This document shows positions 28,813 through 58,570 of a stretch of 58,684 nt of DNA, one piece after another. The notes beneath the pieces were generated by a model that was given only the letters and a program-made list of their open reading frames with translations, had not been told where the DNA came from and did not search any database. A program made the translations under genes and the position numbers. Numbering within the stretch: the stretch's first letter is position 1; each line of letters begins with the position of its first letter. The DNA comes from Rhodoferax sp. OV413 (GTDB taxonomy: Bacteria > Pseudomonadota > Gammaproteobacteria > Burkholderiales > Burkholderiaceae_C), in assembly GCF_900104385.1 (NCBI RefSeq), contig NZ_FNJA01000013.1, positions 1-58,684 on the forward strand, given 5' to 3'.

Positions 28813-28815
28813 GGG

Positions 28816-30540: not shown

Positions 30541-30755
30541 TGCTTGGCCTGCTGCTGGTGTTGTGGGCTGCAGTACACGCCGCGTTCGGTCACCAGAGCT
30601 TCGGTCTGGGGCAGATGCAGGCCGCAAACTTCGCAGGTCACCATGCTGGGCAGCACTTTGGGGGGGCGCGGTGGTACCGGTTTGTTCGCTATCCGCCGCG
30701 AGCGCCAGAGCCACACGCCAAACAGCAGCACCACCAAGACGAGCAACAGCTTCAT
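30537..30755 (-). CDS. PP0621-family small membrane protein with Cys pairs
   Basis: A 72-residue protein beginning MKLLLVLVVLLFGVWLWRSRR with one N-terminal membrane span, then a C-terminal domain with CEVCGLHLP and YCSPQH; the Cys/His set (CxxC ... C..H) is likely a metal site. It matches the uncharacterised PP0621 family commonly found before pilS. The ATG at 30755 overlaps the end of the upstream ccsA-like gene. Function unknown. Confidence 0.82.
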   Translation of the reverse strand: MKLLLVLVVLLFGVWLWRSRRIANKPVPPRPPKVLPSMVTCEVCGLHLPQTEALVTERGVYCSPQHQQQAKQ

Positions 30756-37015: not shown

Positions 37016-38734
37016 CTAGACCTTGGCGCCCGCCTTGATCAGCGCAGCCCGTACCTCTTGTTGATCGCCGGAGGTTGCCAGGATCAGCGCGCTGATGCTC
37101 CTTTGTCCGGGGTCGACCGCATTGGGGCTCGCGCCCGCCTTGAGCAGCGGGCCCACGGCAGCACTGTTGTAGTGCTTGATGGCGTCGATCAAGGCTGCGT
37201 CGAGTTCCTTGCGCCCTGAGAAGGCGTTGGAGTCGAGCCGAAACTGGACCTGTCCTTCGCAATGGGCGCGCACCGCTTCGCCCAAGGAGCCCACCCGGTC
37301 GCATGGGTCCATCACGTTATCGCCTGCGGGGCCGGCCGCGCGCAGCGCCAGTTGCAAGCCCATGTAGTTGCCGTTCGACGCATACGTCGTGTCATCCGAG
37401 AGCAGAAAGGTGGAGTGCCCATCGGCGTTCGCCGTTTGCACCACCAACTGCAAGCGTACATCCTGGTCGCCTGCCAGGCTCTGCGGCAGCGTGAGTTGAA
37501 AGATGCCATCGCTGCGCAGGGCCACGGGGTCTTTTGCCAGATCGACCACCCAGGGCAGGGGCTCGCTTTGCGCCAAGGTGGCGGTGGTGCCGTCGCTGGC
37601 GGCCTGGCTCAGCACCAGACGAATGCTTTCCACCCGGCAGTTGACAGCCGGTTTACAGGCACTCGCTGGCGCGAGCGCCAGCTGCTGAATGCGCATGCGC
37701 AACTCCCCGCGGTTCACTTGTGCCTGGCCTTGCAGGTGGGCGCGCAAGTGCCCATCGTCGAGTAACCAGTTGCTTAGCAGCACTCCAAACTCCGGTGTGC
37801 GCACGCGCGTGCTCAGGCGCCAGGAGGCATCGGTTTCGTCCACGCCCCGCGCGCGTTCCACCCCCGCTACCGATGCGTCATCGACCGCCACGCTGTCCTC
37901 CGACATGGTCATGACCGGCCAGTCCTCGGGCTGCGCATCTGAGGACCACATGGGCATTAGCCAACTCCACGCGACCCAGCCCACCACACCGAGCGACATT
38001 GCGAACGCGCCGCGCCGGACCCAGCGAAGGCCACTTCGGACGCGTGCTGGAGACGGCAATCGAGACCCGGTGTCTGGTGCGGGCAGGCTCGACGGCTGCG
38101 GCGGCGCGTCAGTCGCCGGCTGAGATGCATCCCAGGCGTCGTGCCCGCTGTCTAAACCCGTTGCGCCGGACGTTGCGGGGCGGGTCGCAATTTCAAATGG
38201 CCATACGTCGTTCTCGCCCTGGAGCACCAGGGAAACGTACCAGAAGTCGTTCTGCGTACTTGGCAGATCGGTAGGGAGCGTGAATTCCGCCGTGACCGAC
38301 TGCACCATGAGCTCGCCGGCCACCAGCATGGGGACGGGGCTAGCGACAAACTTGCGCTCCCAGACGCTCCCAAAGCCACTCAGATCTTCGTCCGGCGAGT
38401 CAATGGTCGCCAGCAGCGTCCATGCCTGCGCCTTCAGAGGCCGGGTCAGGTTGAACGTCGCCCTTGTGGGGACGCCGTGGGGCACCGGGTCCTGCGAGAG
38501 ATGCAGCGTGACGCCAGTGCCCCGCAGACGACCGAACCAGAGCAGCAGGGCGCCGGCCGCAATCCCCATACCCGCGAGCACCGCCAAGCCCTTGAACCAT
38601 TCAGCGGTTCCGGGGTGGGGCATAACCAGCCCCCAGGCCAGCGCGTTCCAGACGATGGCGATCACTGTCAACATCGGTGCGCTAGTGCCGGGCGAGGTTT
38701 TGCGGTGGGACATCGTGTTTTTCATATGGGGCAT
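37016..38734 (-). CDS. Membrane protein with ankyrin-like C-terminus, unknown function
   Basis: I do not recognise the family. About 572 residues: two hydrophobic segments near the N-terminus (MLTVIAIVWNALAWGLVM and KGLAVLAGMGIAAGALLLWFG), a region predicted to be beta-rich (about 75-170), a Pro/Ser-rich stretch, a further membrane span (about 255-275, FAMSLGVVGWVAWSWLM), a second beta-rich domain and, at the end, two ankyrin-like helices (DAALIDAIKHYNSAAVGPLLKAGASPNAVD, split over two repeats). The start could be 38734 or 38725. It is divergent from the cyanurate cluster. The last helices hint at protein binding. Confidence 0.7.
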   Translation of the reverse strand: MPHMKNTMSHRKTSPGTSAPMLTVIAIVWNALAWGLVMPHPGTAEWFKGLAVLAGMGIAAGALLLWFGRLRGTGVTLHLSQDPVPHGVPTRATFNLTRPLKAQAWTLLATIDSPDEDLSGFGSVWERKFVASPVPMLVAGELMVQSVTAEFTLPTDLPSTQNDFWYVSLVLQGENDVWPFEIATRPATSGATGLDSGHDAWDASQPATDAPPQPSSLPAPDTGSRLPSPARVRSGLRWVRRGAFAMSLGVVGWVAWSWLMPMWSSDAQPEDWPVMTMSEDSVAVDDASVAGVERARGVDETDASWRLSTRVRTPEFGVLLSNWLLDDGHLRAHLQGQAQVNRGELRMRIQQLALAPASACKPAVNCRVESIRLVLSQAASDGTTATLAQSEPLPWVVDLAKDPVALRSDGIFQLTLPQSLAGDQDVRLQLVVQTANADGHSTFLLSDDTTYASNGNYMGLQLALRAAGPAGDNVMDPCDRVGSLGEAVRAHCEGQVQFRLDSNAFSGRKELDAALIDAIKHYNSAAVGPLLKAGASPNAVDPGQRSISALILATSGDQQEVRAALIKAGAKV

Positions 38735-38871
38735 TTTTACAGCACCCGCACACCCCTCAGACTTTGCCCTTATTCGCGTTGCGGGCCACGATGCGACCCA
38801 GAACACACAGCGCTTGAGGCGCTCGGCCCGATGCCCATTGTGATCGTTCAAACTGGCACAGTGTTTGCATC

Positions 38872-38891
38872 TCATCTTGGATACAAGTTGG
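38872..38891. promoter_or_regulatory. Candidate GntR operator before atzF
   Basis: TCATCTTGGATACAAGTTGG is a palindrome with half-sites CATCTTG and CAAGTTG around a 4-bp centre. It lies 12 bp before the atzF start. The same 20-bp pattern recurs before the transporter genes (43,828). CTTGNATNCAAG fits the TTGTATACAA-like sites of GntR/FCD regulators, one of which is encoded at 50,038. Confidence 0.7.
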
Positions 38892-38902
38892 GATGCTTAA
38901 AA

Positions 38903-40621
38903 ATGGTGCGAACCGAAATCCTGGAAGCTGGTGAAACCTTAGGCCCTCCTGCCGGCCATGCGGCTACGGCCTGGCTGTCGCGGTGCGATCCGCCCTTGGC
39001 GGGCATGCCGGAGGGCGCTTTGTCGGGCCTCCGGTTTGCGGTGAAAGACAACCTGGACGTACAGGGCCTGCCCACCACGGCGGCCTGTCCGGCCTTTGCC
39101 TACGCGCCTACAGCCCACGCCGCTGTGGTGCAAAAGCTGCTCAAGGCTGGTGCGTCGCTACAGGGCAAGACCAATCTGGACCAGTTTGCGTGCGGCTTGA
39201 ACGGCACCCGGTCCCCGTATGGCGCGGTGCCGAATGCCTTTGATCCAGCCTATGTGTCCGGCGGCTCCAGCTCCGGCTCGGCCTATGTGGTGGCCACGGG
39301 GCAGGTGGATTTCGCTCTGGGTACCGACACTGCTGGCTCGGGCCGGGTGCCGGCTGGGCTGAACAATATTGTTGGCATCAAGCCGTCCAAGGGCTTGATC
39401 AGCACGCGCGGACTGGTGCCGGCCGCGCAGAGCGTCGATTGCGTGTCCATCTTTGCCCGCACTGTGGCCACCGCCGCCAGCGTGCTGCAAGCCGCTATCG
39501 GCTACGACCCGCTGGACCCGTATTCGCGCGCGCTGAACCTCGCAAGCCAGGCTTTGCCGGCGCAGTTCCGCTTTGGTGTGCCGTCTGAGTTGGCATTCTT
39601 CGGTGACAGTCTGGCCGAGGCGGCCTTCCAGCAAGCCATCCAGCGGCTGCGCGATATGGGCGGCACGCCCGTTGCCATTGACTACGCCCCGCTGGCCGGC
39701 GCTGCGGCGCTGCTGTACGACAGCGCGCTGGTGACAGAGCGTTACGCCGCGGTGCGCAGCTTCTTTGATGCGCATGCCGACCAGGTGGTCGAGCCCGTGC
39801 GCAGCATTCTGGCGGCCGGCCGAGGCTATAGCGCGGCCGATGTGTACGAGGCCCAGGTCAAGCTGCGCGCCTACGGCCAGCAGGCCGCTGCCATGTGGAG
39901 TGGCATCGACCTGCTGCTGGTGCCCACCGCGCCCACCCACTACACGATTGCGGCCATGCAGGCCGACCCGGTGGTGCTGAACCGCAATCTGGGTGCGTAC
40001 ACCAATTTTGTGAATTTGCTGGACTACGCGGCTATCTCCGTGCCCAGCAGCATCCGGCCCGACGGCTTGCCGTTTGGCATCACCTTGATTGGACCCTGTG
40101 GCAGCGACTGGCAGCTGGCCGAGTTGGGCCAGCGCTACCACCATGCGACGGGCCTGCTGCAAGGCGCGCTGGATCTGCCTTTGCCTGCGCCGCAACCCGT
40201 GCCGGGCCTGCTCCCCGCGGTGGTGGTGCGCGTGGCCGTGGTCGGCGCCCACCTGTCCGGCATGCCGCTGAACGGCCAGTTGACCGAACGCCAGGCCACC
40301 TTGGTCGCCAGCACCACTACTGCATCGGACTACCAGCTGTACGCCTTGCCCGGCACCGTGCCGCCCAAGCCCGGCCTGCTGCGCGTCGCCCCCGGCGCGG
40401 GCACGCAGATTGCGGTCGAGGTGTGGGAGATGCCGCTGGCGCACTACGGTTCGTTCGTTGCGCTCATTCCTGCGCCATTGGGTATCGGCAGCTTGACCCT
40501 GTCCGATGGCAGCACGGTGCAGGGCTTTATCTGCGAGCCGCAGGCTTTGCACGGGGCTACGGACATCTCGCATTTCGGCGGGTGGCGTGCGTACATGGCC
40601 GGTGGCAGCCATGCCGGGTGA
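38903..40621 (+). CDS. atzF: Allophanate hydrolase (amidase-signature family)
   Basis: Hydrolyses allophanate to ammonia and CO2, the last step of cyanuric acid use. The ATG at 38903 gives 572 residues; the frame upstream runs into other genes. The amidase-signature domain has Lys48 in FAVKDNLDVQG, the cis-Ser in VSGGSSSGSA and the nucleophile Ser146 in GTDTAGSGRVPAG. The C-terminal domain (about 430-572, ending FGGWRAYMAGGSHAG) is the extra domain of AtzF-type enzymes. The family assignment is strong, and the neighbours atzG, atzE, atzH and atzD fix the pathway. Confidence 0.93.
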   Translation: MVRTEILEAGETLGPPAGHAATAWLSRCDPPLAGMPEGALSGLRFAVKDNLDVQGLPTTAACPAFAYAPTAHAAVVQKLLKAGASLQGKTNLDQFACGLNGTRSPYGAVPNAFDPAYVSGGSSSGSAYVVATGQVDFALGTDTAGSGRVPAGLNNIVGIKPSKGLISTRGLVPAAQSVDCVSIFARTVATAASVLQAAIGYDPLDPYSRALNLASQALPAQFRFGVPSELAFFGDSLAEAAFQQAIQRLRDMGGTPVAIDYAPLAGAAALLYDSALVTERYAAVRSFFDAHADQVVEPVRSILAAGRGYSAADVYEAQVKLRAYGQQAAAMWSGIDLLLVPTAPTHYTIAAMQADPVVLNRNLGAYTNFVNLLDYAAISVPSSIRPDGLPFGITLIGPCGSDWQLAELGQRYHHATGLLQGALDLPLPAPQPVPGLLPAVVVRVAVVGAHLSGMPLNGQLTERQATLVASTTTASDYQLYALPGTVPPKPGLLRVAPGAGTQIAVEVWEMPLAHYGSFVALIPAPLGIGSLTLSDGSTVQGFICEPQALHGATDISHFGGWRAYMAGGSHAG

Positions 40622-40643
40622 TTTTTCAGCGAAAGGCGCGGTG

Positions 40644-40853
40644 ATGACGGAGCAGCAAATGGAAACCTATGTCGATGCGGCCGCCACCGCGCTGGGCCTG
40701 GCGCTGGGCGATGCGCGCCCTGGCGTGCTGCGCTATTTCGCGCTGGCTGCGGGCATGGCCGAGCTGGTGCAGGCCGTGCCCTTGACGGTGCAGGACGAGT
40801 CGCCCATGGCCTTCATCCCCGTTTCGCCAGTTGTGCCCGGAGACGCGCCATGA
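40644..40853 (+). CDS. atzG: AtzG, small subunit of 1-carboxybiuret hydrolase
   Basis: A 69-residue DUF4089 protein (MTEQQMETYVDAAATALGLA) that in Pseudomonas sp. ADP binds and stabilises AtzE in a heterotetramer, related in role to GatC with GatA. It overlaps atzE by 4 bp (ATGA), as in that strain, so translation is coupled. Small enough to be missed by automatic tools; the coding start at 40644 fits the family. Confidence 0.88.
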   Translation: MTEQQMETYVDAAATALGLALGDARPGVLRYFALAAGMAELVQAVPLTVQDESPMAFIPVSPVVPGDAP

Positions 40854-42271
40854 CGCCCACTAAGGCATGGTGGCAGCAGGACGCAACCCGCATGGCCTAT
40901 GCCGTGGCAGCCCGCGAAGTAACGGCTACGCAGCTGGTACAAGCCTGCCTAAACCGGATTGCGGCCACCGACCGGCGCGTCAACGCCTTCACCGATCTGG
41001 TCCAGGAGCGAGCCCTGCAGCGTGCGGCGCAGATCGATGCGGGCCTGGCCGACGGTACCCAGGCCGCATTGCCCTTGCTGGGCGTGCCCTTCGCCGTGAA
41101 GAACCTGTTTGACATCGCCGGCCTGCGCACCCTGGCCGGCTCGAAGATCGAGCGCGATAGCGTGCCGGCCACTCAAGACGGCCTGCTGGTGCGGCGCATG
41201 GAGGCGGCTGGCGCCATCCTGGTCGGCGCGCTCAACATGGACGAATACGCCTACGGCTTCACCACCGAGAACAGCCACGAAGGCGCTTGCCACAATCCGC
41301 ACAACCTGGACCTTACGGCCGGCGGCTCCTCGGGCGGAAGTGCTGCCGCTGTGGCAGCTGGCCAGGTGCCTTTGACCCTGGGCTCGGACACCAATGGCTC
41401 GATCCGCGTGCCGTCCTCGCTGTGCGGCATTTTTGGCCTGAAGCCTACGTTCGGGCGCTTGCCGCGCACCGGCAGCTTTCCGTTCGTCACCAGCCTGGAC
41501 CACCTGGGGCCGTTCGCGCGCAGCGTGCGCGACCTCGCACTGGCTTATGACGCGATGCAGGGTTTTGAAGAAAAAGGGCTGCACCGGGATGCAGGATGTG
41601 CGCAGCGCGCTACAGAATTTGTAGTGACTGATGTGAACTTGGGCATCCAGGGTCTGCGCATTGGCGTGCTGGGCGGCTATTTCCACGACAACGCCTTGCC
41701 CGAGGCCCGCACCGCCGTGGCCAAGGTCGCCCAAGCCTTGGGTGCGCGCGATACGGTCGAGCTGCCTCTCGTCGAAGCCGGCCGCGCCGCGGCTTTTCTG
41801 ATCACTAATTCAGAGGGCGCGGCCCTGCACCTGGACAACCTGCGCCAGCGGCCTGGCGACTTTGAACCCCTGTCGCGCGACCGCTTTCTGGCCGGCGCGC
41901 TGATCCCTGCGGCCTGGGTGGCACGGGCCCAACGGGTGCGCGCCCGGTATGCACGGGCCGCCGCCCAGGTGTTTGAAAAGTACGACCTGCTGCTGGCGCC
42001 CGCTACGCCGTGCGCCGCCACGCCCTTGGGCGCAGACCGTTTGAACCTGAATGGCCGCGACCTGCCGTTGCGCCCGAATATGGGTGTGCTGACGCAGCCG
42101 ATTTCCTGCATCGGCCTGCCGGTCTGCGCGGTGCCGGTGTGGGGCGCGCACCCGGTCTTGCCAATAGGCGTGCAGGTGATTGCTGCGCCCTGGCGCGAAG
42201 ACCTGGTGCTGCGCGCCGCCGCGGCGTTGGAGGCGGCTGGCGTGTGCCGCGCTCCGGTAGCCAAACTTTGA
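40850..42271 (+). CDS. atzE: 1-Carboxybiuret hydrolase, amidase-signature subunit
   Basis: Deaminates 1-carboxybiuret to 1,3-dicarboxyurea in the cyanurate pathway. The 473-residue enzyme has Lys84 in FAVKNLFDIAG, the cis-Ser in GGSSGGS (about 158-164) and the nucleophile Ser184 in SDTNGSIRVPSSLCG. GatA paralogues are related, but the atzG partner and pathway neighbours favour AtzE. Residues about 238-259 (GFEEKGLHRDAGCAQRATEF) are encoded by palindrome copy D and fall in a surface loop in family alignments (inference). Confidence 0.9.
   Translation: MTPTKAWWQQDATRMAYAVAAREVTATQLVQACLNRIAATDRRVNAFTDLVQERALQRAAQIDAGLADGTQAALPLLGVPFAVKNLFDIAGLRTLAGSKIERDSVPATQDGLLVRRMEAAGAILVGALNMDEYAYGFTTENSHEGACHNPHNLDLTAGGSSGGSAAAVAAGQVPLTLGSDTNGSIRVPSSLCGIFGLKPTFGRLPRTGSFPFVTSLDHLGPFARSVRDLALAYDAMQGFEEKGLHRDAGCAQRATEFVVTDVNLGIQGLRIGVLGGYFHDNALPEARTAVAKVAQALGARDTVELPLVEAGRAAAFLITNSEGAALHLDNLRQRPGDFEPLSRDRFLAGALIPAAWVARAQRVRARYARAAAQVFEKYDLLLAPATPCAATPLGADRLNLNGRDLPLRPNMGVLTQPISCIGLPVCAVPVWGAHPVLPIGVQVIAAPWREDLVLRAAAALEAAGVCRAPVAKL
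41561..41625 (+). repeat. Dispersed palindrome copy inside atzE (copy D)
   Basis: It has the same length and layout as intergenic copy A: TTTTGAAGAAAAAGGGCTGC, then GCGCAGCGCGCTACAGAATT and TTTGTAG, the last seven bases identical to the end of copy A. It is open in the atzE frame and encodes about 21 residues. Confidence 0.65.
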
Positions 42272-42280
42272 GGGACCACG

Positions 42281-42658
42281 ATGGACCACGCTATCAATTT
42301 GCCCGGAGTGCTGGCCGAGGTGCAGGCCGTGTTCGACCGCTACGAAGATGCCTTGGTGAACAACCGCGTCGAGGTGCTGGACGAACTGTTTTGGCGCAGC
42401 CCGCACACCCTGCGCTACGGCGCGACCGAGAACCTCTATGGTTTCGATGCGATCCAGGCCTTCCGCGCTGGGCGCCCGGCCCAAGGCCTGCAGCGCCAGC
42501 TGCTGAAGACGGTGATCACCACCTATGGGCAAGACTTCGCTACAGCCAACGTGGAGTTCCAACGCGACGGCAGCAGCCAGACCGGCCGCCAGAGCCAGAC
42601 CTGGCTGCGCACACCCGAGGGCTGGCGCGTGGTGGCGGCCCACGTCAGCTTGTTGTGA
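42281..42658 (+). CDS. atzH: AtzH, 1,3-dicarboxyurea decarboxylating hydrolase family
   Basis: A 125-residue DUF3225 (NTF2-like) protein. In Pseudomonas sp. ADP, AtzH converts 1,3-dicarboxyurea to allophanate and so prevents a dead end. The sequence shows [39 protein letters not shown] and [19 protein letters not shown], the usual NTF2-fold blocks. It lies between atzE and atzD with 9- and 16-bp gaps, in the expected place for the pathway. Confidence 0.88.
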
Positions 42659-42674
42659 TGCCGGTGGTGCGCGC

Positions 42675-43793
42675 ATGAACCCCAAGGTCCAACACGTGGA
42701 GGTGCACCGGGTGCTGTGCAGCGGCCCTGGGGATCTGTCGGGTGTGCAGGCCTTGATCACCAGCGGCAGTCTGCACCCAGCGGACATCGTAGCCGTGATG
42801 GGCAAGACCGAGGGCAATGGCTGTGTGAATGACTTCACCCGCGACTTCGCCGCCACCAGCTGGTGCCATTTCCTCGGCCCGCATCTGGCTTGCACGCCCG
42901 CCGAAGTGGGGCAGCGCGTGGCCCTGGTCATGTCGGGCGGCACCGAAGGGGTGCTGTCGCCGCACTGGACGGTCTTCTCGCGCCGCTGGGTCGATGCGGT
43001 GCCGGCCCAAGGCAAGCGCTTGGTGGTGGGTGTCGCCCATACGCGCGACTTCCTGCCCGAGGAGATAGGCCGTGCCGCCCAGATCGCGTGCACGGCCACG
43101 GCGGTGCGGCAGGCCATGCAGGACGCCGGCATATACGACGCGGCCGACGTGCATTTTGTGCAGATCAAATGCCCGTTGCTGACCTCGGCCAAGGTCAATG
43201 CCGCCTTGCAGCGCGGCGCCCAGACGGTCACGCAGGACAGCTACGAGTCCATGGCGTACTCGCGTGGCGCTTCGGCCCTGGCCGTGGCCGTGGCATTGGG
43301 TGAAGTGCCACCGCAGGCTGATGCCGCAGCCGCGCTGCTGAATGATTGGTCGCTGTATTCAGCCCGAGCCTCCGCCTCGGCAGGTATCGAGCTGGAGGGC
43401 AATGTGGTGATCGTGCTGGGCGAGGCCGAAGGCGCACTGTCGCCCTACCGCATCGCCCACACGGTGATGCGCGATGCGGTGGATGCCGCCAGCGTGCGCC
43501 AACTGCTGCGCAGCGCCTTCGGCATGGAGGGTGATGGTGCATCGGCCTTGCCCGGCCTGGTGAATCTGCTGGCCAAGGCCGAGGCTAGCCCGGATGGCCT
43601 GGTGCGCGGCCTGCGCCACACCATGTTGAACGACTCCGACATCAATGCCACACGCCATGCCCGCGCCGCCGTGGGCGCGGTGCTGGCATCGCTGGTGGGC
43701 AGCACCGCGCTGTATGTGTCTGGCGGGGCCGAGCACCAGGGGCCTGCTGGCGGTGGGCCGGTGGCGGCCATCGTGCGGGTGGGTGGGGCTTGA
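42675..43793 (+). CDS. atzD: Cyanuric acid amidohydrolase
   Basis: Opens the s-triazine ring of cyanuric acid to carboxybiuret. The 372-residue product has the three-domain Lys-Ser pattern of the family: Lys44 in MGKTEGNG and Ser87 in MSGGTEGVLSP (43 apart, as reported for AtzD), the second pair in QIKCPLLT and YSRGASA, and the third Ser in VSGGAEHQGPAGGGPVA. Barbiturases share this fold, but the atzE-atzG-atzH-atzF neighbours point to cyanurate. Preceding sequence has no strong start signal; the ATG at 42675 fits the family. Confidence 0.9.
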   Translation: MNPKVQHVEVHRVLCSGPGDLSGVQALITSGSLHPADIVAVMGKTEGNGCVNDFTRDFAATSWCHFLGPHLACTPAEVGQRVALVMSGGTEGVLSPHWTVFSRRWVDAVPAQGKRLVVGVAHTRDFLPEEIGRAAQIACTATAVRQAMQDAGIYDAADVHFVQIKCPLLTSAKVNAALQRGAQTVTQDSYESMAYSRGASALAVAVALGEVPPQADAAAALLNDWSLYSARASASAGIELEGNVVIVLGEAEGALSPYRIAHTVMRDAVDAASVRQLLRSAFGMEGDGASALPGLVNLLAKAEASPDGLVRGLRHTMLNDSDINATRHARAAVGAVLASLVGSTALYVSGGAEHQGPAGGGPVAAIVRVGGA

Positions 43794-43827
43794 GCATGGC
43801 TGAATCCGCAGGCATGCATTTTGCGTC

Positions 43828-43847
43828 CCATCTTGTATCCAAGTTGG
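43828..43847. promoter_or_regulatory. Candidate GntR operator before the transporter genes
   Basis: CCATCTTGTATCCAAGTTGG is a palindrome of half-sites CCANCTTG and CAAGNTGG around TATC. The centre CTTGTATCCAAG is the reverse complement of CTTGGATACAAG at 38,876, and the flanks match in the same direction. It starts 35 bp downstream of the atzD stop and lies 48 bp before the BMP start. Confidence 0.72.
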
Positions 43848-43895
43848 AATATCGTCTTACGCACTATTTTGGTAACCACTCTTCTGGAGAAACGT

Positions 43896-45011
43896 ATGAG
43901 CTCTGACAGCCTGAATCGCCGCAAGTCCCTCCAAACGCTGGCCGCCCTGACGGCTGCGGGCACCCTGGGTAGCTGGGCGCCACGTGCACTGGCCCAAAAG
44001 CCGCTCACCGTGGGCGTGATCTACGTCGGCCCGCGCGACGACTACGGCTACAACCAAGCGCATGCGCAAACCGCGGCCGAAATCAAGAAGCTGCCCGGTG
44101 TGAAGGTGGTGGAAGAAGAGAACGTACCCGAGACCTCGGCCGTGCAAAAAACCATGACCGGGATGATTGCCCAGGATGGTGCGAGCCTGCTGTTCCCTAC
44201 CTCGTTCGGTTACTTCGACCCGCACATCCTGGCACTGGCGCCCAAGTACCCCGATGTGCGCTTCTCGCATTGCGGCGGTATGTGGACCGAAAAGAACCCC
44301 AAGAACGTGGGCAGCTTCTTCGGCTACATCGACGAATGCCAGTTCCTGAACGGCGTGATCGCCGGCCATATGAGCAAGAGCGGCAAGATCGCCTTCGTGG
44401 CGGCCAAACCGATTCCGCAGGTGCTGCGCAACATCAACGCCTTTACGCTGGGGGCACGCTCCGTCAAGCCCGGCATCACCTGCAGCGTGATCTTCACCGG
44501 CGATTGGTCGATGGCGGTGAAAGAAGCCGAGGCCACCAACAGCCTGGCCGACCAGGGCTGCGACGTGTTCACCATGCATGTGGACGGCCCCAAGGTGATC
44601 GTCGAGACCGCCGCCAAGCGCGGCAAGATGGTCTGCGGCTACCACGCCAGCCAGGCCAAGCTGGCACCCAATGCCTACCTCACCGGCGCCGAATGGAACT
44701 GGTTCACCGCCTACAAAACCGCCATCGACGCGGCCCAGGCGGGAAAGCCGCACCCCAACTTCCTGCGCGGCGGTCTGAAAGAGGGCTACGTGAAGATGTC
44801 GCCCTACGGCAGCATGGTTACCGACGCGGCGAAGAAGCAGGCCGATGGCATCAAGGCGCAGATGGTGGCTGGCAGCTTCGACATCTTCAAAGGCCCGCTG
44901 AAGGACAACAAGGGCGCTACCGTGATTGCGGCCGGCAAGGTGCTCAAGCAGACCGATCCGGTTTTGGAAGGAATGAACTACCTGGTGGAAGGCGTGCAAG
45001 GCAGTTTCTAA
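43896..45011 (+). CDS. BMP-family substrate-binding lipoprotein-like protein (AtzT-like)
   Basis: Periplasmic binding component of a basic membrane protein (BMP/PnrA) ABC importer. The ATG at 43896 follows GGAGAAACGT and gives 371 residues, with a twin-arginine-type signal RRKSLQTLAALTAAGTLGSW and a cleavage site near ALAQ. BMP proteins usually bind nucleosides or purines; AtzT of Pseudomonas sp. ADP, of this family, binds hydroxyatrazine-type triazines, so cyanurate or related ureides are likely ligands here (inference from context). It heads a permease-permease-ATPase set. Confidence 0.85.
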   Translation: MSSDSLNRRKSLQTLAALTAAGTLGSWAPRALAQKPLTVGVIYVGPRDDYGYNQAHAQTAAEIKKLPGVKVVEEENVPETSAVQKTMTGMIAQDGASLLFPTSFGYFDPHILALAPKYPDVRFSHCGGMWTEKNPKNVGSFFGYIDECQFLNGVIAGHMSKSGKIAFVAAKPIPQVLRNINAFTLGARSVKPGITCSVIFTGDWSMAVKEAEATNSLADQGCDVFTMHVDGPKVIVETAAKRGKMVCGYHASQAKLAPNAYLTGAEWNWFTAYKTAIDAAQAGKPHPNFLRGGLKEGYVKMSPYGSMVTDAAKKQADGIKAQMVAGSFDIFKGPLKDNKGATVIAAGKVLKQTDPVLEGMNYLVEGVQGSF

Positions 45012-45032
45012 ACCCCGCCCACAGGAGCTCGC

Positions 45033-46103
45033 ATGCACTCCACTGCCAAAGACATCCTGCTGCCGGTCACGGCGATCCTGCTGGCGCTGCTGCTGTTCGG
45101 CGTCTTCGTCTGGTTCGCGGGCGTCAACCCGGTGGACATGTGGTTGACGCTGTTCAAGGGCGCGTTCGGCGACTGGTTCTCCTGGCAGAACACGCTGCAG
45201 CGCTCGGCGCCGCTGATGCTCACCGCCCTGTGCGTGGCGCTGCCGGCGCGCGCTGGCCTGATCATCATCGGAGGCGAGGGGGCTTTGGTGTTGGGCGGCC
45301 TGGCCTGTGCCGCGGTGGGCACGCTGCTACCGCTGCCGGCGAATCTGCTGGGCACCGTGATCGCCTGCGCCGCTGGCGCCTTGGCCGGGGCGCTGTGGAT
45401 CATGCTGGCGGGCTGGCTGCGCCAGGCGCGCGGTATCAATGAGACCATCAGCAGCCTCTTGCTGGCCTATGTGGCGATCGGCATCTTCAAGCACCTGGTC
45501 GAGGGCGCGCTGCGCGACCCGGCCAGCCTGAACAAGCCGGCCACGCACAGCCTGGCCGAGGGCTTGCTGATCACCGGCATTGCCGGTTCGGACGTGCACT
45601 GGGGGCTGGTGCTGGGTGTGCTGGCCTGCGTGGCGCTGGGGCTGTGGCTGCGCTGGACGGCCTCCGGCTTTTCGATTCGTGTGGTTGGCGGCAACCCGCG
45701 GGCCGCGCAACTGGTGGGCTTGCCTGCCACGCAACTGATCTTGACGGCCTGCGCCCTCGGTGGCGCCAGTGCCGGCCTGGCCGGCGCGGTGGAAGTGGCC
45801 GCCGTGCACACCAATGCGAATGCCGCGCTGATCGCCGGCTATGGCTATGCCGGCATCCTGGTGTCCTTCATCGCCCGGCATAACCCGGTCGCCATCGTGC
45901 CGGTGGCCATTTTGTTCGGCGGCTTTGGTGCGGCGGGCAGCCTGCTGCAGCGTCGCCTCGGTTTGCCCGATGCGTCCGTGATGGTGTTGCAGGGCATTGC
46001 CTTCGTGCTGATCCTGGCCAGCGAAGCGCTGCGCGATGTGGACTGGAAGCTGCTGTTTTCCAAGATGCGTAAACCGGCGATTGCTGGCGTGGAGGCAACA
46101 TGA
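45033..46103 (+). CDS. BMP-type ABC transporter permease 1
   Basis: A 356-residue inner-membrane permease with about nine to ten hydrophobic segments, including the family blocks NVVIGGEGALVLGG-like (GLIIIGGEGALVLGG) and GFSIRVVGGNPRAAQLVG. It has about the length of BMP permeases (about 350) and pairs with the next gene, which overlaps it by 4 bp (ATGA). Substrate is probably set by the binding protein. Confidence 0.88.
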   Translation: MHSTAKDILLPVTAILLALLLFGVFVWFAGVNPVDMWLTLFKGAFGDWFSWQNTLQRSAPLMLTALCVALPARAGLIIIGGEGALVLGGLACAAVGTLLPLPANLLGTVIACAAGALAGALWIMLAGWLRQARGINETISSLLLAYVAIGIFKHLVEGALRDPASLNKPATHSLAEGLLITGIAGSDVHWGLVLGVLACVALGLWLRWTASGFSIRVVGGNPRAAQLVGLPATQLILTACALGGASAGLAGAVEVAAVHTNANAALIAGYGYAGILVSFIARHNPVAIVPVAILFGGFGAAGSLLQRRLGLPDASVMVLQGIAFVLILASEALRDVDWKLLFSKMRKPAIAGVEAT

Positions 46104-47020
46104 CCGCTGACCAATGGGTGGCGTTATTCGCTGGGATTGTGGGGGGCGCTTTACGCGTTGGAACGCCCTTCCTATTCGTCAGCCTCGGTGAGTGTTTGAC
46201 AGAAAAATCTGGCCGTATCAACCTGGGTCTGGAAGGCGTTCTCGTGCTGTCGGCCATGAGCGCCTTCGGCGGCGCCTACCTCACCGGATCACCCTGGCTG
46301 GGCGTGCTGGCCGGTGCCTGCGCCGGGGCCTTGCTGGCCGCCTTGCACGGCGTGCTGTGCTCACTGCCGCGGGTGAACGACGTGGCCACCGGCATCGCGC
46401 TGATGCTGCTCGGCACCGGCCTGGCGTTCTACCTGGGCAAGCCGCTGATCCAGCCGCAGGCCCCGCAGATTCCGGCCATTCCCCTCGGCGGCTGGAGCGG
46501 CTCCAGCGTGTTGCAGTCGGCCTTGCAGATCAATGCGCTGCTGCCCATCGGCATCGCGCTGGCGGTGGGGCTGTGGTGGGCTTTCGCCCGCACCCGTTGG
46601 GGGCTGCTGGTGCGACTGGCGGGCGACTCGGCGAATGCCACGCGGGCGCTGGGCTATTCGGTGTCCGGCATCCGCATTGCGGCCACGGCCGCCGGCGGAT
46701 TCATGGCGGGTTTGGGCGGTGCGTCGCTGACCCTGTTCTACCCCGGCAGCTGGAACGAAGGTATCTCCAGCGGCCAAGGCCTGATCGCGGTGGCTCTGGT
46801 GATTTTTGCGCGCTGGAGCCCGCTGCGTTGCGTGGGTGCCGCCATGCTGTTCGGCGGTGCCGGCGCCATCGGTCCGGCGATGCAGTCGGTCGGCATAGGC
46901 TGGGGCTACCACCTGTTCAATACCGTGCCCTATGTGCTGACTTTGGTGATTCTGGTTTTCACCTGCAAGCCCGGCAGCGTGGCTGTCGGCAGCCCGGGCG
47001 AGCTGTCTTCTACAAGGTAA
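46100..47020 (+). CDS. BMP-type ABC transporter permease 2
   Basis: A 306-residue permease with about eight hydrophobic segments ([20 protein letters not shown] at the start), the second transmembrane subunit of the importer. It shows [21 protein letters not shown] and [19 protein letters not shown] as in the CbcB/BMP permease family. The start overlaps the previous stop; the biuret-hydrolase-like gene follows 6 bp on, so all four are one transcript. Confidence 0.88.
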
Positions 47021-47025
47021 ATCTT

Positions 47026-47709
47026 ATGGCCTATGTTGCTGCGAATCCCTACGCCTGGCCCTACAACGGCCAGCTGCGCCCCGACAACACGGCGCTGATC
47101 GTCATCGACATGCAAACCGACTTCTGCGGCGTCGGCGGCTATGTGGATGTGATGGGCTACGACATCAGCCTGACCCGCGCGCCGATTGCGCCGATAGCCT
47201 ATGTGCTGGCGCGGCTGCGCCCCTTGGGCTACCACATCATCCATACCCGTGAAGGTCATAGACCCGACCTCTCAGACCTGCCGGCCAACAAACGCTGGCG
47301 TTCGCGGCAGATCGGCGCTGATGGCGTCGGCATTGGCGACGTCGGCCCCTGCGGGCGCATCCTGGTGCGCGGCGAGCCGGGCTGGGAAATCATTCCCGAG
47401 CTGGTGCCGTTCCCGGGCGAGGTCATCATCGACAAGCCCGGCAAGGGCTCGTTCTACGCCACAGACCTGGACATGGTGCTGCGCCAGCGCGGCGTGCAAA
47501 ACATCATCCTGGCCGGCATCACCACCGATGTCTGCGTGCACACCACCATGCGCGATGCCAACGACCGCGGCTACGAATGCCTGCTGCTGTCCGACTGCAC
47601 CGCGGCCACCGACCCGGCGAACCACCAGGCGGCGCTGAATATGGTGACCATGCAGGGCGGCGTCTTCGGTGCGCACGCGCCATCGGGCGCGCTGCTCGAC
47701 GTTGTCTAA
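47026..47709 (+). CDS. biuH: Biuret hydrolase-like cysteine hydrolase
   Basis: Isochorismatase-superfamily amidohydrolase, probably splitting biuret to allophanate and ammonia. The 227-residue product has the triad Asp28 (VIDMQTDF), Lys137 (DKPGKGSF) and Cys170 (TTDVCVHTT). Blocks such as [16 protein letters not shown] and [14 protein letters not shown]-type ([21 protein letters not shown]) recall known BiuH proteins. Its place in the atz cluster supports the role, since carboxybiuret decarboxylates to biuret. The ATG at 47026 fits the family. Confidence 0.82.
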
Positions 47710-47722
47710 CCCAAGGAATGCC

Positions 47723-49336
47723 ATGGCCCCAGACTCCACCCCCATTGGCGCGCTTCCCGCAGGCACCGGCGCGCTGGCGCTGGAAACCTATCTGCTGACC
47801 AAGCGCTTCGGCAGCTTCACCGCGATGGACAGTGTCTCGATGCGCGTGGAGCCCGGCACCGTGCATGCCTTGCTGGGCGAGAACGGCGCCGGCAAGAGCA
47901 CGCTGGTCAAGTGCGTGGCCGGCTTCCAGCGCGCGGAGGAGGGCAGCATCATGCTCGACGGACGCGAGCAGCTGATCGCCAACCCCATCGTCGCGCGCAC
48001 CCTGGGCATCGGCATGGTCTACCAGCACTTCACCCTGGCGCCGGGCATGACGGTGGCCGAGAACCTGCTGCTGGCCGGCGGCACCCTGCCGGCGGTGATC
48101 GACTGGACGGCTAAGCGCGCCGAGCTGAAAGCCTTCCTGGCCACCACGCCATTCAGCCTGGACCTGGACGCACGCCCGGCCGAGCTGGCCGCCGGTGAAA
48201 AGCAGAAGCTGGAGTTGCTGAAGCAGCTGTACCTGAAGCCGCGCCTGCTGATCCTGGACGAACCTACTTCGGTGCTGACGCCGCAAGAGGCCGACGAGGT
48301 ACTGGGCCATGTGCGCGCCTTCGCCCAGAGCGGTCAGTGCAGCGTGCTGATCATCACCCACAAGTTCCGCGAGGTACTGGCCTATGCCGATGGCGTGACG
48401 GTGCTGCGCCGCGGCAAGGCGGTGCACCACGGCCGCGTCGCCGGCACCGCGCCGCAGCGGCTGACGCAAACCCTGGCGCAGGCGATGATGGGCGAAAGTT
48501 TAGAGCCGAATAGTGCTCTGGCGCAGGAAGCACCTGCGCAACGTGCTACACAAAGTGCAGCAAACGACGGCCCCATCGCTTTGCAGGTAGACGGCCTGAA
48601 AGCCCAGGGCGACCGCGGCACCCTGGCGCTGCACGGCCTGAGCTTGGCGGTGCGCAAGGGCGAGGTGCTGGGCGTGGCCGGGGTTTCGGGCAACGGCCAG
48701 CGCGAGCTGGTCGAGGCGCTGGTGGGCCAGCGGGCACGCCTGGGCGGCCGGGTGCAGGTGATGGGCGAAGACTACGCGGCGCGGCGCGCAGACAACCACC
48801 GCCTGAAGGTGCGCAGCCTGCCGGAAGAGCCGCTGCGCAACGCCTGCGTCGGCGATCTGTCGGTAGCCGAGAACATGGCGCTGCGCGACTTTGACCAGCC
48901 GCCGTTGAACGTCGGCGGGCTGCTGCGCTTTTCCACCTGGCGCAACCGGGCACGCGACTGGATCAAGGAATACGGCGTGAAGACGCAGGGCGAGGGCGCG
49001 CCGATACGCAGCCTGTCCGGCGGCAATGTGCAGCGCGCGGTGTTGGCGCGCGAGCTGGCCGGCGACATCAATGTGCTGATCGCCGCCAACCCGGTGTTCG
49101 GCCTGGACTTTGCCGCCGTGGCCGAAATCCACAGCCGCATCCTCGGCGTGCGGGATCGCGGCGGCGCGGTGCTGCTGATCAGCGAAGACCTGGACGAACT
49201 GCTGGAGTTGGCCGACCGCATCGTGGTGATGAGCGAAGGCCGCATCGTGTTTGAAACCCCCGCCGCCACCGCCGAGCGCCACGTACTCGGTGCCCACATG
49301 GGCGGTGGGCATGACGACCACAAGGAGGCCGCATGA
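47723..49336 (+). CDS. BMP-type ABC transporter ATPase
   Basis: A 537-residue tandem ATPase with two ABC domains. The first has Walker [10 protein letters not shown] and an ABC signature-like [13 protein letters not shown]; the second has [16 protein letters not shown] in place of a canonical Walker A and [13 protein letters not shown], typical of BMP/sugar importers where the second site is degenerate. The ATG at 47723 follows AAGGAATGCC. The linker at residues about 258-280 lies in palindrome copy E. It sits between the two cysteine hydrolase genes. Confidence 0.9.
48496..48562 (+). repeat. Dispersed palindrome copy inside the ABC ATPase gene (copy E)
   Basis: GTTTAGAGCC, GTGCTCTGGCGCAGG and TGCGCAACGTGCTACACAAAG reproduce the left arm, centre and right arm spacing of copy A. 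It encodes [21 protein letters not shown], an in-frame linker between the two ABC domains. Confidence 0.55.
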
Positions 49337-50004
49337 GCCTGAATATCTCCGCGCTGCCGTTCGACTACCCGCTGGATGTGGCCCGTGCCGCCCTGGTCAT
49401 CATCGACATGCAGCGCGACTTCATCGAACCCGGCGGCTTTGGCGAGACCCTGGGCAACAACGTGGCCTTGCTGGAGGCCATCGTGCCGGCCAGCCAGGCG
49501 ATGCTGGCGGCCTGGCGCCAGGCCGGTGGCCTGGTGGTGCACACCCGTGAGGCGCACAAGCCGGATCTGTCCGACTGCCCGCCGGCTAAGCTGAACCGCG
49601 GCAACCCGGCGCTGCGCATCGGCGATGTAGGGAATATGGGCCGCATCCTGATCGCGGGCGAACCGGGCAACCAGATCATCGATGCACTGGCGCCGGTGGA
49701 TGGCGAGATCGTCATCGACAAGCCCGGCAAGGGCGCGTTTTACGCCACCGGCTTGCACGAGATGCTGCAAGAGCACGGCATCCAGCAGCTGTTGTTTATG
49801 GGAGTGACCACCGAGGTCTGCGTGCAGACCAGCATGCGCGAGGCCAATGACCGCGGCTACGACGGTCTGCTGCTGGAGGACTGCACCGAGAGCTACTTTC
49901 CGCAGTTCAAGGCCGCCACGCTGGAGATGGTGCGGGCCCAGGGCGGCATCGTTGGATGGACGGCGCCGTCCACGGTGGTGCTGCAGGCATTGGCCTCGCT
50001 GTGA
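49333..50004 (+). CDS. Second isochorismatase-family cysteine hydrolase (biuret or triuret type)
   Basis: A 223-residue amidohydrolase related to the upstream biuret-hydrolase-like protein, with the triad Asp25 (IIDMQRDF), Lys130 (DKPGKGAF) and Cys163 (TTEVCVQTS); the Lys-Cys spacing of 33 matches. It may act on triuret (triuret hydrolases are in this family and yield carboxybiuret and ammonia), on biuret or on another ureide such as ureidoacrylate. It overlaps the ATPase gene by 4 bp. Confidence 0.75.
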
Positions 50005-50037
50005 GCCCGCTGCATTGCAGCTGCTAAAGTTTGCCCT

Positions 50038-50790
50038 GTGCACTCCTTGACCCCATCCCCCATATCCCCTGTAGAACCCGCCGTATACCGCTCGCGCGCC
50101 GAAGAGGTGTACGCCCAGCTGAAGCGCGACGTTGCCGAGTTCAAGCTCGTGCCCGGCGACCGCTTTACCGAAAACGAGATCAGCGAGCGCCTGGGCGTGT
50201 CGCGCACCCCCGTGCGCCAGGCGCTGACCCGGCTGCAGCAAGAGGGCTATGTGGAGGTGCTGTTCCGCAGCGGCTGGCGTGTGCTGCCGTTCGACTTTGA
50301 CCAGTTCGAGCAGCTGTACGACCTGCGCATGGTGCTGGAAACCACCGCCGCCCACCGCCTATGCGAATGTGGCGCGGGTGCGGCAGCGCCGCATATCCAG
50401 ATCGACCACCGCTTGCTCGACGAGCTGCTCGCCATTTGGTTGGTGCCTGTGGCCCAGCGCAGCACCGACACCTTGCAGGTTGCGCAGTGGGACGAGGAAT
50501 TCCATTGCGCCCTGGTGCGGGCTGCCGGCAATACCGAGATGGCCCGCGTGCACAGCGACGTCACCGAGCGCATCCGCATCATCCGCCGGCTGGATTTCAC
50601 CAAGCAGGCGCGCATCACCGCCACCTACGACGAGCACGCGAAGATTCTGAAAGCCATCCGCAGCCGGCGCGGTGACCAGGCGGCGATGCTGCTGCGTGCC
50701 CACATCCAGGCCAGCCAGGCCGAGGTGCGCAAGATCACGCTGCACCAGGTGCACGTGGCCCGGCAGGTGGGCCAAAGCCCGGCGACCTAA
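50038..50790 (+). CDS. GntR/FCD-family transcriptional regulator
   Basis: A 250-residue regulator with an N-terminal winged helix-turn-helix (ENEISERLGVSRTPVRQALTRLQQEGYVEV) and a C-terminal all-helical FCD effector domain with DEEFHCALVRAAGN and DEHAKILKAI carrying Asp/His metal-ligand candidates. The start is the GTG at 50038, 34 bp after the hydrolase gene. It ends the cluster and most likely controls it through the two 20-bp palindromes; a ureide or cyanurate may be the effector. Its stop overlaps that of fadD. Confidence 0.88.
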   Translation: MHSLTPSPISPVEPAVYRSRAEEVYAQLKRDVAEFKLVPGDRFTENEISERLGVSRTPVRQALTRLQQEGYVEVLFRSGWRVLPFDFDQFEQLYDLRMVLETTAAHRLCECGAGAAAPHIQIDHRLLDELLAIWLVPVAQRSTDTLQVAQWDEEFHCALVRAAGNTEMARVHSDVTERIRIIRRLDFTKQARITATYDEHAKILKAIRSRRGDQAAMLLRAHIQASQAEVRKITLHQVHVARQVGQSPAT

Positions 50791-52475
50791 GTCGTCGGCG
50801 AACGCAACTCGCGGCGCAGGATCTTGCCCACGTTGGACTTGGGCAGCTCTTTGCGGAACTCTATGGACTTGGGTAGCTTGTAGCCGGTGAGCTGCTGTTT
50901 GCAGAACAGCATCACATCGGCCTCGGTGAGGGCCGGGTCGCGCTTGACCACAAACACCTTGATGGCCTCGCCCTGTTTTTCGTCGGGCACGCCGATGGCC
51001 GCGCATTCGACTACGCCGGGGCAAAGCGAAATCACGTTTTCCAGCTCGTTCGGGAACACGTTGAAGCCGCTGACCAGGATCATGTCCTTCTTGCGGTCGA
51101 CGATGCGGGTGTAGCCGCGCTCGTCCATCATGCCGATGTCGCCGGTGCGCAGATAGCCGTCGGCGGTGAACGAGCGGGCGGTTTCCTCCGGCTGGTTGTA
51201 GTAGCCCACGGTGACGTTCGGGCCTTTGATGCAGATCTCGCCGGCTGCTCCCAGGGGCAGGTCGGTGCCGTCGTCGTCCTTGATCGCCAGAGTTATGCTG
51301 GGCAGGGGCAGGCCGATGGTGCCGCTGAAGGTCTTGGCCAGTACCGGGTTGTTGGTGCCGATGGCACAGGTTTCGCTCATGCCCCAACCTTCGACCATGG
51401 GGCAACCGGTGGCTTCCAGCCAGCGCTGGGCCGTGCCCTCCGAGGCCGCCATGCCGCCGGCCTGCGACACGTAGAGCTGCGAGAAATCGATGGTCTTGAA
51501 GTCCGGCTGCAGCAGCAGGGCGTTGAACAAGGTGTTGACCGCCGGCAGCAGATGGAAGGGGCGCTTTTTGAGCGTAGCGATGAACTTGCTGAAGTCGCGC
51601 GGATTCGGGATCAGCGTCATGTGCGAGCCCAGGCGTATGCCCATCAGGCACAGGGTCAGCGCGAAGATGTGGTACAGCGGCAGGGCGGCAATGCAGTTGA
51701 CCTTGTGCGGATCGCCGACCCGCGCCAGCGCCGGCTTGAACCAGGCTTCGGCCTGCAGCACGGCGGCCACGATGTTGCGGTGCGTGAGGATCGCGCCCTT
51801 GGACAGGCCGGTGGTGCCGCCGGTGTACTGCAGAAAGGCCACCGAATCCAGCGTGCTGGCGGTGCGTTGCAACTGGCGACCGCGGCCGTCGGCCAGGGCG
51901 GCGTTGAAGTGGGTGATCTTCAGCCGGGCGCTGCCGCCCAGGTTGAAGGCGGGCACCATCTTCTTCACGTGGCGGACCATGAAGTTGACCACCGTGCCAA
52001 AGACTGCGCCCAGCAGGTCGCCCATGCTGGCCAGCACCACATGCTGGATCTGGGTGCGGTCTACCACTTCTTCCAGGGTGCGGGCAAAGTTCTCCAGGAT
52101 CACGATGGCGGTGGCGCCCGAGTCCTTCAGCTGGTGCTCCAGCTCGCGCGGGGTGTACAGCGGATTCACGTTCACGCAGGTATAGCCGGCGCGCAGCACG
52201 GCGGCCATGGTGACGGCAAACTGCGGGATGTTCGGCAGCATGATGGCGACCCGGGCACCGGGAGCCAAGCCCTGGGCCTGCAGCCAGGCGCCGAGCGCGG
52301 TGGACAGCTGGTCGAGCTCGCGATAGGACATCCAGCGCTCCATGCAGACCGAGAACGGGTTGTCGGCGTGCTTGGCGAACGACTCGTCCAGCAGCTGCGT
52401 CAAGGAGCCATAGGCATTGACATCGATCTCGTGCGCTACGTCGGCGGGGTAGTTCTTCAGCCAGGGTTTGTCCAT
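50787..52475 (-). CDS. AMP-binding acyl-CoA synthetase (FadD-like)
   Basis: Activates a fatty acid as its CoA thioester. The ATG at 52475, after GGAGA, gives 562 residues with the AMP-binding core YTGGTTGLSKGAILTHRN, EGWGMSETC, RTGDIGMMDE and RIVDRKKDMILVSGFNVFPNE, the last block giving the lid hinge. Length and blocks are those of E. coli FadD. It is convergent with the GntR gene (4-bp overlap) and so is probably not part of the cyanurate cluster. Confidence 0.92.
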   Translation of the reverse strand: MDKPWLKNYPADVAHEIDVNAYGSLTQLLDESFAKHADNPFSVCMERWMSYRELDQLSTALGAWLQAQGLAPGARVAIMLPNIPQFAVTMAAVLRAGYTCVNVNPLYTPRELEHQLKDSGATAIVILENFARTLEEVVDRTQIQHVVLASMGDLLGAVFGTVVNFMVRHVKKMVPAFNLGGSARLKITHFNAALADGRGRQLQRTASTLDSVAFLQYTGGTTGLSKGAILTHRNIVAAVLQAEAWFKPALARVGDPHKVNCIAALPLYHIFALTLCLMGIRLGSHMTLIPNPRDFSKFIATLKKRPFHLLPAVNTLFNALLLQPDFKTIDFSQLYVSQAGGMAASEGTAQRWLEATGCPMVEGWGMSETCAIGTNNPVLAKTFSGTIGLPLPSITLAIKDDDGTDLPLGAAGEICIKGPNVTVGYYNQPEETARSFTADGYLRTGDIGMMDERGYTRIVDRKKDMILVSGFNVFPNELENVISLCPGVVECAAIGVPDEKQGEAIKVFVVKRDPALTEADVMLFCKQQLTGYKLPKSIEFRKELPKSNVGKILRRELRSPTT

Positions 52476-52618
52476 GCGGTGTCTCCGTCGGTTGTCAGTT
52501 GGGGCCATTCTGGGAGGGGAGTGTCAGCAGGTGTTACCGGGCAAGCCCCTAGGGCCAGCAGGCTGCGGTCGCTTGGGGGACATAGTTGGCAGGCTGAGAC
52601 CACTGAGACAATAGGGCG

Positions 52619-54059: not shown

Positions 54060-54078
54060 TTTTTTGTCTCCTGATAAT

Positions 54079-57637: not shown

Positions 57638-57642
57638 GGTTT

Positions 57643-58557: not shown

Positions 58558-58570
58558 GGTCAAGCCCCGC

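Follow-up and report, generated by a model that had tools for sequence, protein, structure and literature searches.

A probable triuret and biuret nitrogen cluster with an added cyanuric acid hydrolase gene in Rhodoferax sp. OV413

What is a gene for cyanuric acid hydrolase (atzD) doing in a block of genes that otherwise looks like a set for the use of triuret and biuret nitrogen? The question is raised by a 58,684-nucleotide stretch of the genome of Rhodoferax sp. OV413 (contig NZ_FNJA01000013.1, positions 1 to 58,684; referred to below, at its full length, as the window), where twelve open reading frames (ORFs), all open and all on the + strand, occupy positions 38903-50790 in the order atzF, atzG, atzE, atzH, atzD, bmp, perm1, perm2, biuH, abc, trtA, gntR. 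The block is probably a Burkholderiales triuret/biuret nitrogen cluster supplemented with atzD and arranged in two sigma54 units under the control of the GntR-family regulator encoded at its end. The case bears on a question left from 2018, i.e., what the atzG-atzE-atzH clusters do in genomes without atzD: these genes have been characterised only in cyanurate degradation, and their describers left the role elsewhere open (PMC6219798; here and below, statements on published systems refer to the accessible parts of the papers cited). A candidate answer is offered here.

Eleven of the twelve genes were named by family models and the second permease gene by comparison with relatives. Together with the ORF check of the window, these matches bear out the gene content listed in the first-pass annotation made from the sequence letters, namely atzF-G-E-H-D, two cysteine hydrolases, a BMP-family importer, and a GntR regulator on one strand. 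The first hydrolase (biuH, 47026..47709) scored 416.2 bits on the BiuH equivalog (cut-off 370), and its best solved chains are BiuH. The second one (trtA, 49333..50004), an isochorismatase-fold hydrolase by family match, scored 246 bits on the same model, i.e., under the cut-off; among the solved chains, it matches TrtA 6xix best (299.7 bits vs. 205.4 bits for the biuret hydrolase 6xjm). The positions separating triuret from biuret hydrolases, Phe35, Asn41, Glu160, and Ile205 in TrtA vs. Tyr, Tyr, Asp, and Val in BiuH (PMC7948467), read F/N/E/I in the second hydrolase of the window and Y/Y/D/V in the first. In the alignment (excluding L011 and L009), the TrtA-type letter was present at these positions in 48/48, 48/48, 48/48, and 47/48 TrtA rows, respectively, and the BiuH-type letter at each of them in 55/55 BiuH rows. 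The window TrtA also fits Gln202 and the catalytic Asp24 and Cys162 (Lys129 was unscored). Overall, the second cysteine hydrolase fits a triuret hydrolase, giving substance to the triuret input that had been suggested for this locus.

The product of atzD (42675..43793) scored 532.4 bits on the cyanuric acid amidohydrolase equivalog (cut-off 360) and, among the solved chains, 453.5 bits against cyanuric acid hydrolase 4bvq vs. 276.5 bits against barbiturase. It carries the cyanurate-type residue at all five specificity positions, i.e., Arg195, Thr321, Arg325, Gly345, and Gly346, which are Asn, His, Lys, Val, and Ser in barbiturase (PMC3758960). The five residues are common to all 50 AtzD rows compared (with a gap at 195 in one row); therefore, they separate AtzD from barbiturase and not AtzD subgroups from each other. 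The numbering was transferred with a shift of one on the RefSeq protein of Pseudomonas sp. ADP, fitting positions 195-346; positions 42-162 disagreed with this shift and were left unscored. These features suggest a specificity of the cyanurate rather than the barbiturate type. The protein is 63% identical to ADP AtzD and falls on a different branch of the tree.

The genes atzG (40644..40853), atzE (40850..42271), and atzH (42281..42658) are contiguous. AtzG, the small partner subunit of AtzE, was recognised by the AtzG-like model (38.2 bits, cut-off 24) and by alignment. AtzE, assigned as carboxybiuret amidohydrolase, scored 689.6 bits on PRK09201 (cut-off 461); its best chain is 6c62, a chain with the letters of ADP AtzE, and the window protein is 56% identical to ADP AtzE. 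AtzH belongs to the dicarboxyurea decarboxylase family (AtzH-like, alias HpxZ), scored 211 bits on the HpxZ model (cut-off 135), and has AtzH (6bjt) as the nearest solved chain. The product of atzF (38903..40621) matches the allophanate hydrolase family and has an N-terminus approximately 50 residues shorter than that of ADP AtzF.

Judging from these assignments, triuret via TrtA and the cyanuric acid ring via AtzD would be converted into carboxybiuret, the compound which the known TrtA and AtzD both yield (PMC7948467). Carboxybiuret would then be deaminated by AtzEG to 1,3-dicarboxyurea, the latter decarboxylated by AtzH to allophanate, and allophanate broken down by AtzF to ammonia and CO2. 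Carboxybiuret decarboxylating spontaneously would give biuret, which BiuH would convert into allophanate. Both carboxybiuret routes had been announced in the first-pass annotation: the deaminating AtzEG/AtzH route is encoded, and for the other one no separate TrtB gene was seen, since the ORFs of the block include no further one of the decarboxylase kind (as judged without a TrtB reference, so that an AtzH-like TrtB is possible). Therefore, to reach biuret, carboxybiuret would have to decarboxylate spontaneously, with BiuH acting afterwards. A side observation concerns eight TrtA clusters lacking an AtzE match (L058, L059, L060, L113, L115, L116, L127, and L128), which possess an AtzH-like gene 41-51% identical to that of the window, annotated HpxZ in L058 and L060; this gene may encode the decarboxylase TrtB.

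A small planar compound would enter the cell via the BMP-type ATP-binding cassette (ABC) importer, comprising the periplasmic binding protein (43896..45011, BMP family match), permease 1 (45033..46103, BPD_transp_2), permease 2 (46100..47020, named by tblastn synteny; its Ideonella counterpart in L058 is annotated as an ABC permease), and an ATPase with two ABC stretches (47723..49336, family matches). The binding protein is nearest to AtzT (6pi5), where guanine is sandwiched by Tyr45 and Trp194 and contacted by Ser97, Glu165, Asn218, and Asn220 (PMC6834077). The Tyr, Ser, and Trp of this site are kept in the window protein and nine relatives, and Glu165, Asn218, and Asn220 are replaced by Gln, His, and Asp in all ten, so the guanine contacts of the purine-binding AtzT type are incomplete in the window protein. 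This combination of kept and changed residues is compatible with a ligand that is planar but different from guanine; a ureide or cyanurate is the probable candidate.

How common such a block is was assessed in 399 genomes of the family (E cut-offs up to 1e-60 for TrtA and up to 1e-110 for AtzE). TrtA was found in 102 genomes (57 of 141 genera), AtzE in 90 (55 genera), and AtzD in 15 (11 genera). Of the 90 AtzE genomes, 67 encode AtzE and TrtA at most 20 kb apart; another nine possess both, though farther apart or on different contigs. Seven of the 15 AtzD genomes have AtzD at a distance of up to 20 kb from TrtA, and four (G000, i.e., the window genome, G002, G085, and G350) have it that close to AtzE. 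Only in the window genome and G002 does AtzD lie between AtzE and TrtA, with the reservation that split contigs could hide further cases; the MAG L015 (G401; see below) can be added to these two. At the genus level, AtzD was found in 2/8 genomes, and TrtA together with AtzE in 5/6 of the genus genomes drawn for the survey of these two proteins.

For the comparison of gene order, 39 TrtA loci of the family were retrieved (L008, L011, and L096 represent one genome, G002, and L023/G405 is apparently the same as G027, judging from the contig and coordinates). Fourteen of them show the order atzF-ABC-(atzG)-atzE-atzH-bmp-perm1-perm2-biuH-abc-trtA-gntR, including an additional ABC importer that follows atzF; five have the same order without this importer, one of the five (G002) with atzD; the remaining 20 differ or are cut. 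Since 19/39 loci share the order including gntR, a block like this is nothing out of the ordinary; what is uncommon is the presence of atzD inside it. The arrangement had been regarded as unusual, as had the presence of a GntR instead of a LysR regulator; neither view is supported by the comparison, in which the relatives possess a similar gntR, or by the published record, where gntR appears in a figure legend on the nitrifier clusters trtA-biuH-atzF-trtB-bmpA-nupABC (PMC12625717).

Much of the composition is, indeed, already known. In Pseudomonas sp. ADP (pADP-1, atzDGEHF with atzR and atzSTUVW), AtzD, AtzG, AtzE, AtzH, and AtzF are encoded together with a BMP-family ABC importer beside atzDGEHF, and sigma54-dependent promoters are reported (PMC6834077). 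Unlike the window, ADP has the LysR regulator AtzR, divergent operons with atzD first, and no BiuH or TrtA in the stretch; the window has a GntR regulator and the order atzF-G-E-H-D instead of AtzR and atzD-G-E-H-F. The triuret clusters of Herbaspirillum and nitrifiers share TrtA, BiuH, AtzF, and the BMP importer with the window (PMC7948467, PMC12625717), whereas they feature the decarboxylase TrtB, and the nitrifier ones, as far as described, lack the AtzGE route and atzD. The cyanurate/biuret cluster of Rhizobium leguminosarum combines cyanuric acid hydrolase with BiuH, but the AtzEG-AtzH route is no part of its description in the accessible text (PMC5806882). Similar in setting are the clusters reported by Esquirol et al. 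2018 (PMC6219798) from Burkholderiales (Rhodoferax, Variovorax, and others), in which atzG-atzE-atzH come with genes for allophanate hydrolase, amidases, and ABC transporters; they resemble the window in the Rhodoferax host group, the same-strand atzF before atzG-atzE-atzH, and the ABC and amidase genes downstream. Their description, in its accessible part, differs in having no atzD, hydrolases not named TrtA or BiuH, and no promoter or operator.

Where, then, did atzD enter the block? In the genomes G004 and G006, which carry the same block without atzD, the sigma54-like element of the importer unit (see below) starts within approximately 10 nt of the atzH stop. In the window and in G002, a genome of the same genus, atzD sits exactly between atzH and this element; with G002 at hand, the idea of atzD as a one-off in the window was rejected. 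The ten-protein cluster tree of eight genomes resolves as (window,(G002,(G004,G006))), its local supports being 1.000 and 0.998; therefore, atzD was lost in the line of G004 and G006, gained twice, or exchanged. The identity of G002 to G004 is 80.8-84% at atzH vs. 85-96% over atzF and atzE, and the atzH of G002 is 89.6% identical to that of the window and 83.2% to that of G004, unlike most other genes of the cluster; this is suggestive, and no more, of recombination around atzD. It was also noted that atzE of G002 (L011:8170-8760), a metagenome-assembled genome (MAG), matches from residue 161 onward only, an interruption which is either a sequence error or real.

Two further loci pair atzH with atzD. 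L015 (G401, MAG) displays atzE-atzH-atzD, then 5.5 kb of other ORFs followed by bmp-perm1-perm2-biuH, and its contig also carries TrtA (one internal stop was reported in this match); L013 (G402) displays atzE-atzH-atzD with the contig ending approximately 2.3 kb beyond and a best TrtA match of 41%. In the AtzD tree, from which the partial AtzDs L036, L053, and L055 were left out, the AtzDs located beside atzH (window, L011, L013, and L015) form a clade (99/92), and ADP AtzD pairs with that of L038 (100/100). The simplest reading of these sequences is two separate origins of the association of atzD with atzGEH. The sister of ADP AtzD comes from an Aquabacterium MAG (L038:3468-9700), where atzD-atzF-atzE-atzH are accompanied by a distant BMP gene; it may be related to the source from which the ADP operon came.

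Since the known TrtA and AtzD enzymes share carboxybiuret as the product, atzD was probably plugged into an existing triuret node. A broader proposal, which we consider evenly poised between right and wrong, would be that atzGEH in Burkholderiales serves mainly as the carboxybiuret-deaminating arm of triuret breakdown (TrtA-AtzEG-AtzH-AtzF) with a GntR repressor acting on sigma54 start sites, and that cyanurate degradation arose at least twice by the addition of atzD to the carboxybiuret node. The sister genomes, which differ in having or lacking atzD at a single site, illustrate how a pollutant-degrading step can join an older nitrogen pathway.

The regulatory part of this reading starts from the gene junctions. 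The genes had been described as largely overlapping by 4 bp and forming one transcript-like block. Such overlaps were found at only 3 of the 11 junctions (atzG/atzE, perm1/perm2, and abc/trtA), the other eight being gaps of 5-102 bp. The largest gap (102 bp), ahead of the binding-protein gene, harbors a promoter-like element of its own; therefore, the genes more likely form two transcription units (atzF-G-E-H-D and bmp-perm1-perm2-biuH-abc-trtA-gntR) than a single one, and the reading as one transcript was rejected. Before atzF, a sigma54-like -24/-12 element, GGCAC-N5-TTGC (38855..38868, + strand), retains its position in relatives and is followed by the palindrome CTTGGATACAAG (38876..38887), which covers the predicted start site of this unit and is proposed as GntR site 1. 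Before the importer unit, GGCAT-N5-TTGC (43811..43824, + strand), also conserved in relatives, is followed by the palindrome CTTGTATCCAAG (43832..43843), the proposed GntR site 2. GGCAY-N5-TTGC is thus present ahead of both predicted units and is followed, at a distance of exactly 7 nt, by the palindrome CTTGNATNCAAG. The former resembles the sigma54 consensus, and the usual sigma54 geometry would put the start site near the middle of the palindrome. Each unit would, hence, start at a sigma54 promoter with the start region under the palindrome, the proposed binder being the FCD-domain GntR-family protein of the cluster (gntR, 50038..50790, GntR and FCD family match), a candidate repressor of both units. 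Nitrogen limitation would give activation, and a pathway compound would free the promoters of GntR.

The longer 19-nt operator is above chance in the window (4 strand matches vs. 0.11 expected), and the core occurs at six places in the genome, the whole pattern at only the two cluster sites. Allowing one mismatch at most, the combined pattern was found at 71 places in 58 of the 399 family genomes (34 genera), the reversed control giving 0; it is present in 49/102 TrtA genomes vs. 9/297 others (Fisher p 4e-25, relatedness ignored), and 56 of the 71 places lie within 20 kb of TrtA. The other 15 include 11 directly before atzF, one before bmp, and three near unrelated GntR genes. As a check independent of sigma54, operators alone were picked from 67 promoter regions of relatives (L011, L008, and L009 left out): 36 regions possess the core within one mismatch, and GG-N10-GC stands exactly 7 nt away from 29 of these 36 operators, every other spacing of 0-19 nt being represented by 0 or 1 case. 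The GG-N10-GC motif is thus kept in relatives at a fixed place before the gene. In the 20 loci with these 29 sites, gntR is 67-91% identical to that of the window; of the other seven sites, six are in loci where gntR is at most 53% identical or unseen, and the seventh (L118) has 68%. The genome possesses rpoN and NtrC genes; no sigma70-like promoter was detected in 38400-51000, which is weak evidence given a shuffle mean of 1.8. In the literature, outside most subscription papers, no report of the GntR-sigma54 element or of the atzGEH-trtA linkage was found. The proposed promoter-operator element could be used to find genes of the pathway across the family. Of the places near unrelated GntR genes, L139, L145, and L146 (G104, G224, and G149) show the pattern with 0 or 1 mismatch near GntR genes 29-34% like that of the window, possibly a second regulon using the same site.

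Several results weigh against this picture. In the window, the sigma54 pattern alone is at chance level (5 found vs. a shuffle mean of 3.22), as is the 12-nt core alone (2 vs. 1.52, one mismatch allowed). The core within one mismatch is lacking in 31/67 promoter regions of relatives, and 7 of the 36 operator sites lack the fixed sigma54 element. No clear enrichment of NtrC sites and no common position for them was found in the 300 bp upstream of 46 promoters (plain shuffles as control): scores of 8, 9, and 10 out of 12 were obtained for 21, 18, and 6 promoters vs. 25.5, 15.9, and 2.1 expected. The window-wide scan gave 48 sites, fewer than the shuffle mean of 62.8; with the scans near the shuffle level, the NtrC-like sites were dropped as evidence for NtrC. 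Moreover, in Burkholderia cenocepacia, growth of an ntrC mutant on biuret was improved rather than impaired (PMC5491218). Finally, AtzE occurs without TrtA in 14/90 genomes; therefore, triuret is not the only context of AtzE. The chance-level halves, the lack of clear NtrC sites, and the three places before unrelated GntR genes would also suit another explanation, i.e., that the palindrome belongs to another regulator, or GGCAY-N5-TTGC belongs to a single long operator instead of being a sigma54 promoter, with GntR acting elsewhere. This is rather unlikely in view of the 7-nt spacing fixed in 29/36 sites, the likeness to the sigma54 consensus, and the presence of a similar gntR in each of the 20 loci carrying the element.

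Other explanations concern the substrate. A dedicated cyanuric acid mineralisation cluster, with atzD as the key gene and the importer, BiuH, and TrtA serving cyanurate use, would explain an AtzD over the hydrolase cut-off, the occurrence of the same enzymes with a BMP importer in ADP, and the single clade formed by the atzH-atzD pair in four loci. It is unlikely, however: the same block exists without atzD in the sisters G004 and G006, AtzD is found in 15/399 genomes vs. 102/399 for TrtA, and TrtA would be idle on cyanurate. Alternatively, AtzG-AtzE-AtzH could be an HpxXYZ-like system for another amide (e.g., oxalurate-related) with no carboxybiuret route, as might be surmised from AtzH exceeding the HpxZ cut-off, from the 14 AtzE genomes lacking TrtA, and from clusters of atzF-ABC-atzGEH-gntR without TrtA, BiuH, or bmp (L135, L136, L137, and L141). 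At the same time, HpxZ is also the annotation of atzH in ADP, which makes the name uninformative here, the nearest solved chains are AtzE and AtzH, and the linkage of AtzE to TrtA is strong, making this possibility still less probable. Least plausible by far, indeed hardly credible, is a pyrimidine/barbiturate pathway with AtzD as barbiturase and both hydrolases as ureidoacrylate hydrolases. The RutB model does match the two hydrolases (121.7 and 90.3 bits), and L057 has an AtzD relative beside RutB-like and allantoinase-like genes, but the RutB cut-off of 377.95 bits is not reached, the BiuH and TrtA chains match far better, and the solved-chain scores and five cyanurate-type residues led to rejection of the barbiturase reading. 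The cyanurate/triuret/biuret assignment made earlier is thus favoured over the barbiturate/ureidoacrylate outcome named as its refutation, insofar as residues and scores can tell.

The four loci without TrtA deserve a separate remark: L135, L136, L137, and L141 (G264, G086, G174, and G105) contain atzF-ABC-atzE-atzH-gntR and share the promoter-operator element. Neither TrtA nor BiuH nor bmp was seen in these stretches, and an atzG match was found in L137 and L141. In the window, gntR is followed by a gene for an AMP-binding enzyme (50790-52508), located between gntR and a sugar-type ABC importer (Peripla_BP_4, BPD_transp_2, and ABC ATPase) with an SMP-30/gluconolactonase-like gene on the - strand (52953-58563). 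Upstream, a sigma54 activator with a response-regulator domain, NtrC-like but under the NtrC cut-off, is encoded beside a histidine kinase (27337-30867, - strand); no evidence for its action on the cluster was found.

AtzD also occurs in a separate kind of cluster. In L057:5706-12002, the neighbours of an AtzD over the cyanuric acid hydrolase cut-off are an allantoinase-like gene, a taurine-type ABC ATPase, and a RutB/BiuH-like hydrolase that reaches neither of the two respective cut-offs. According to tblastn, 14 more loci are of this kind (L014, L017-L020, L025-L027, L029, L031, L036, L039, L054, and L056; 15 in total), and the link between purine products and cyanurate that they hint at is worth a look.

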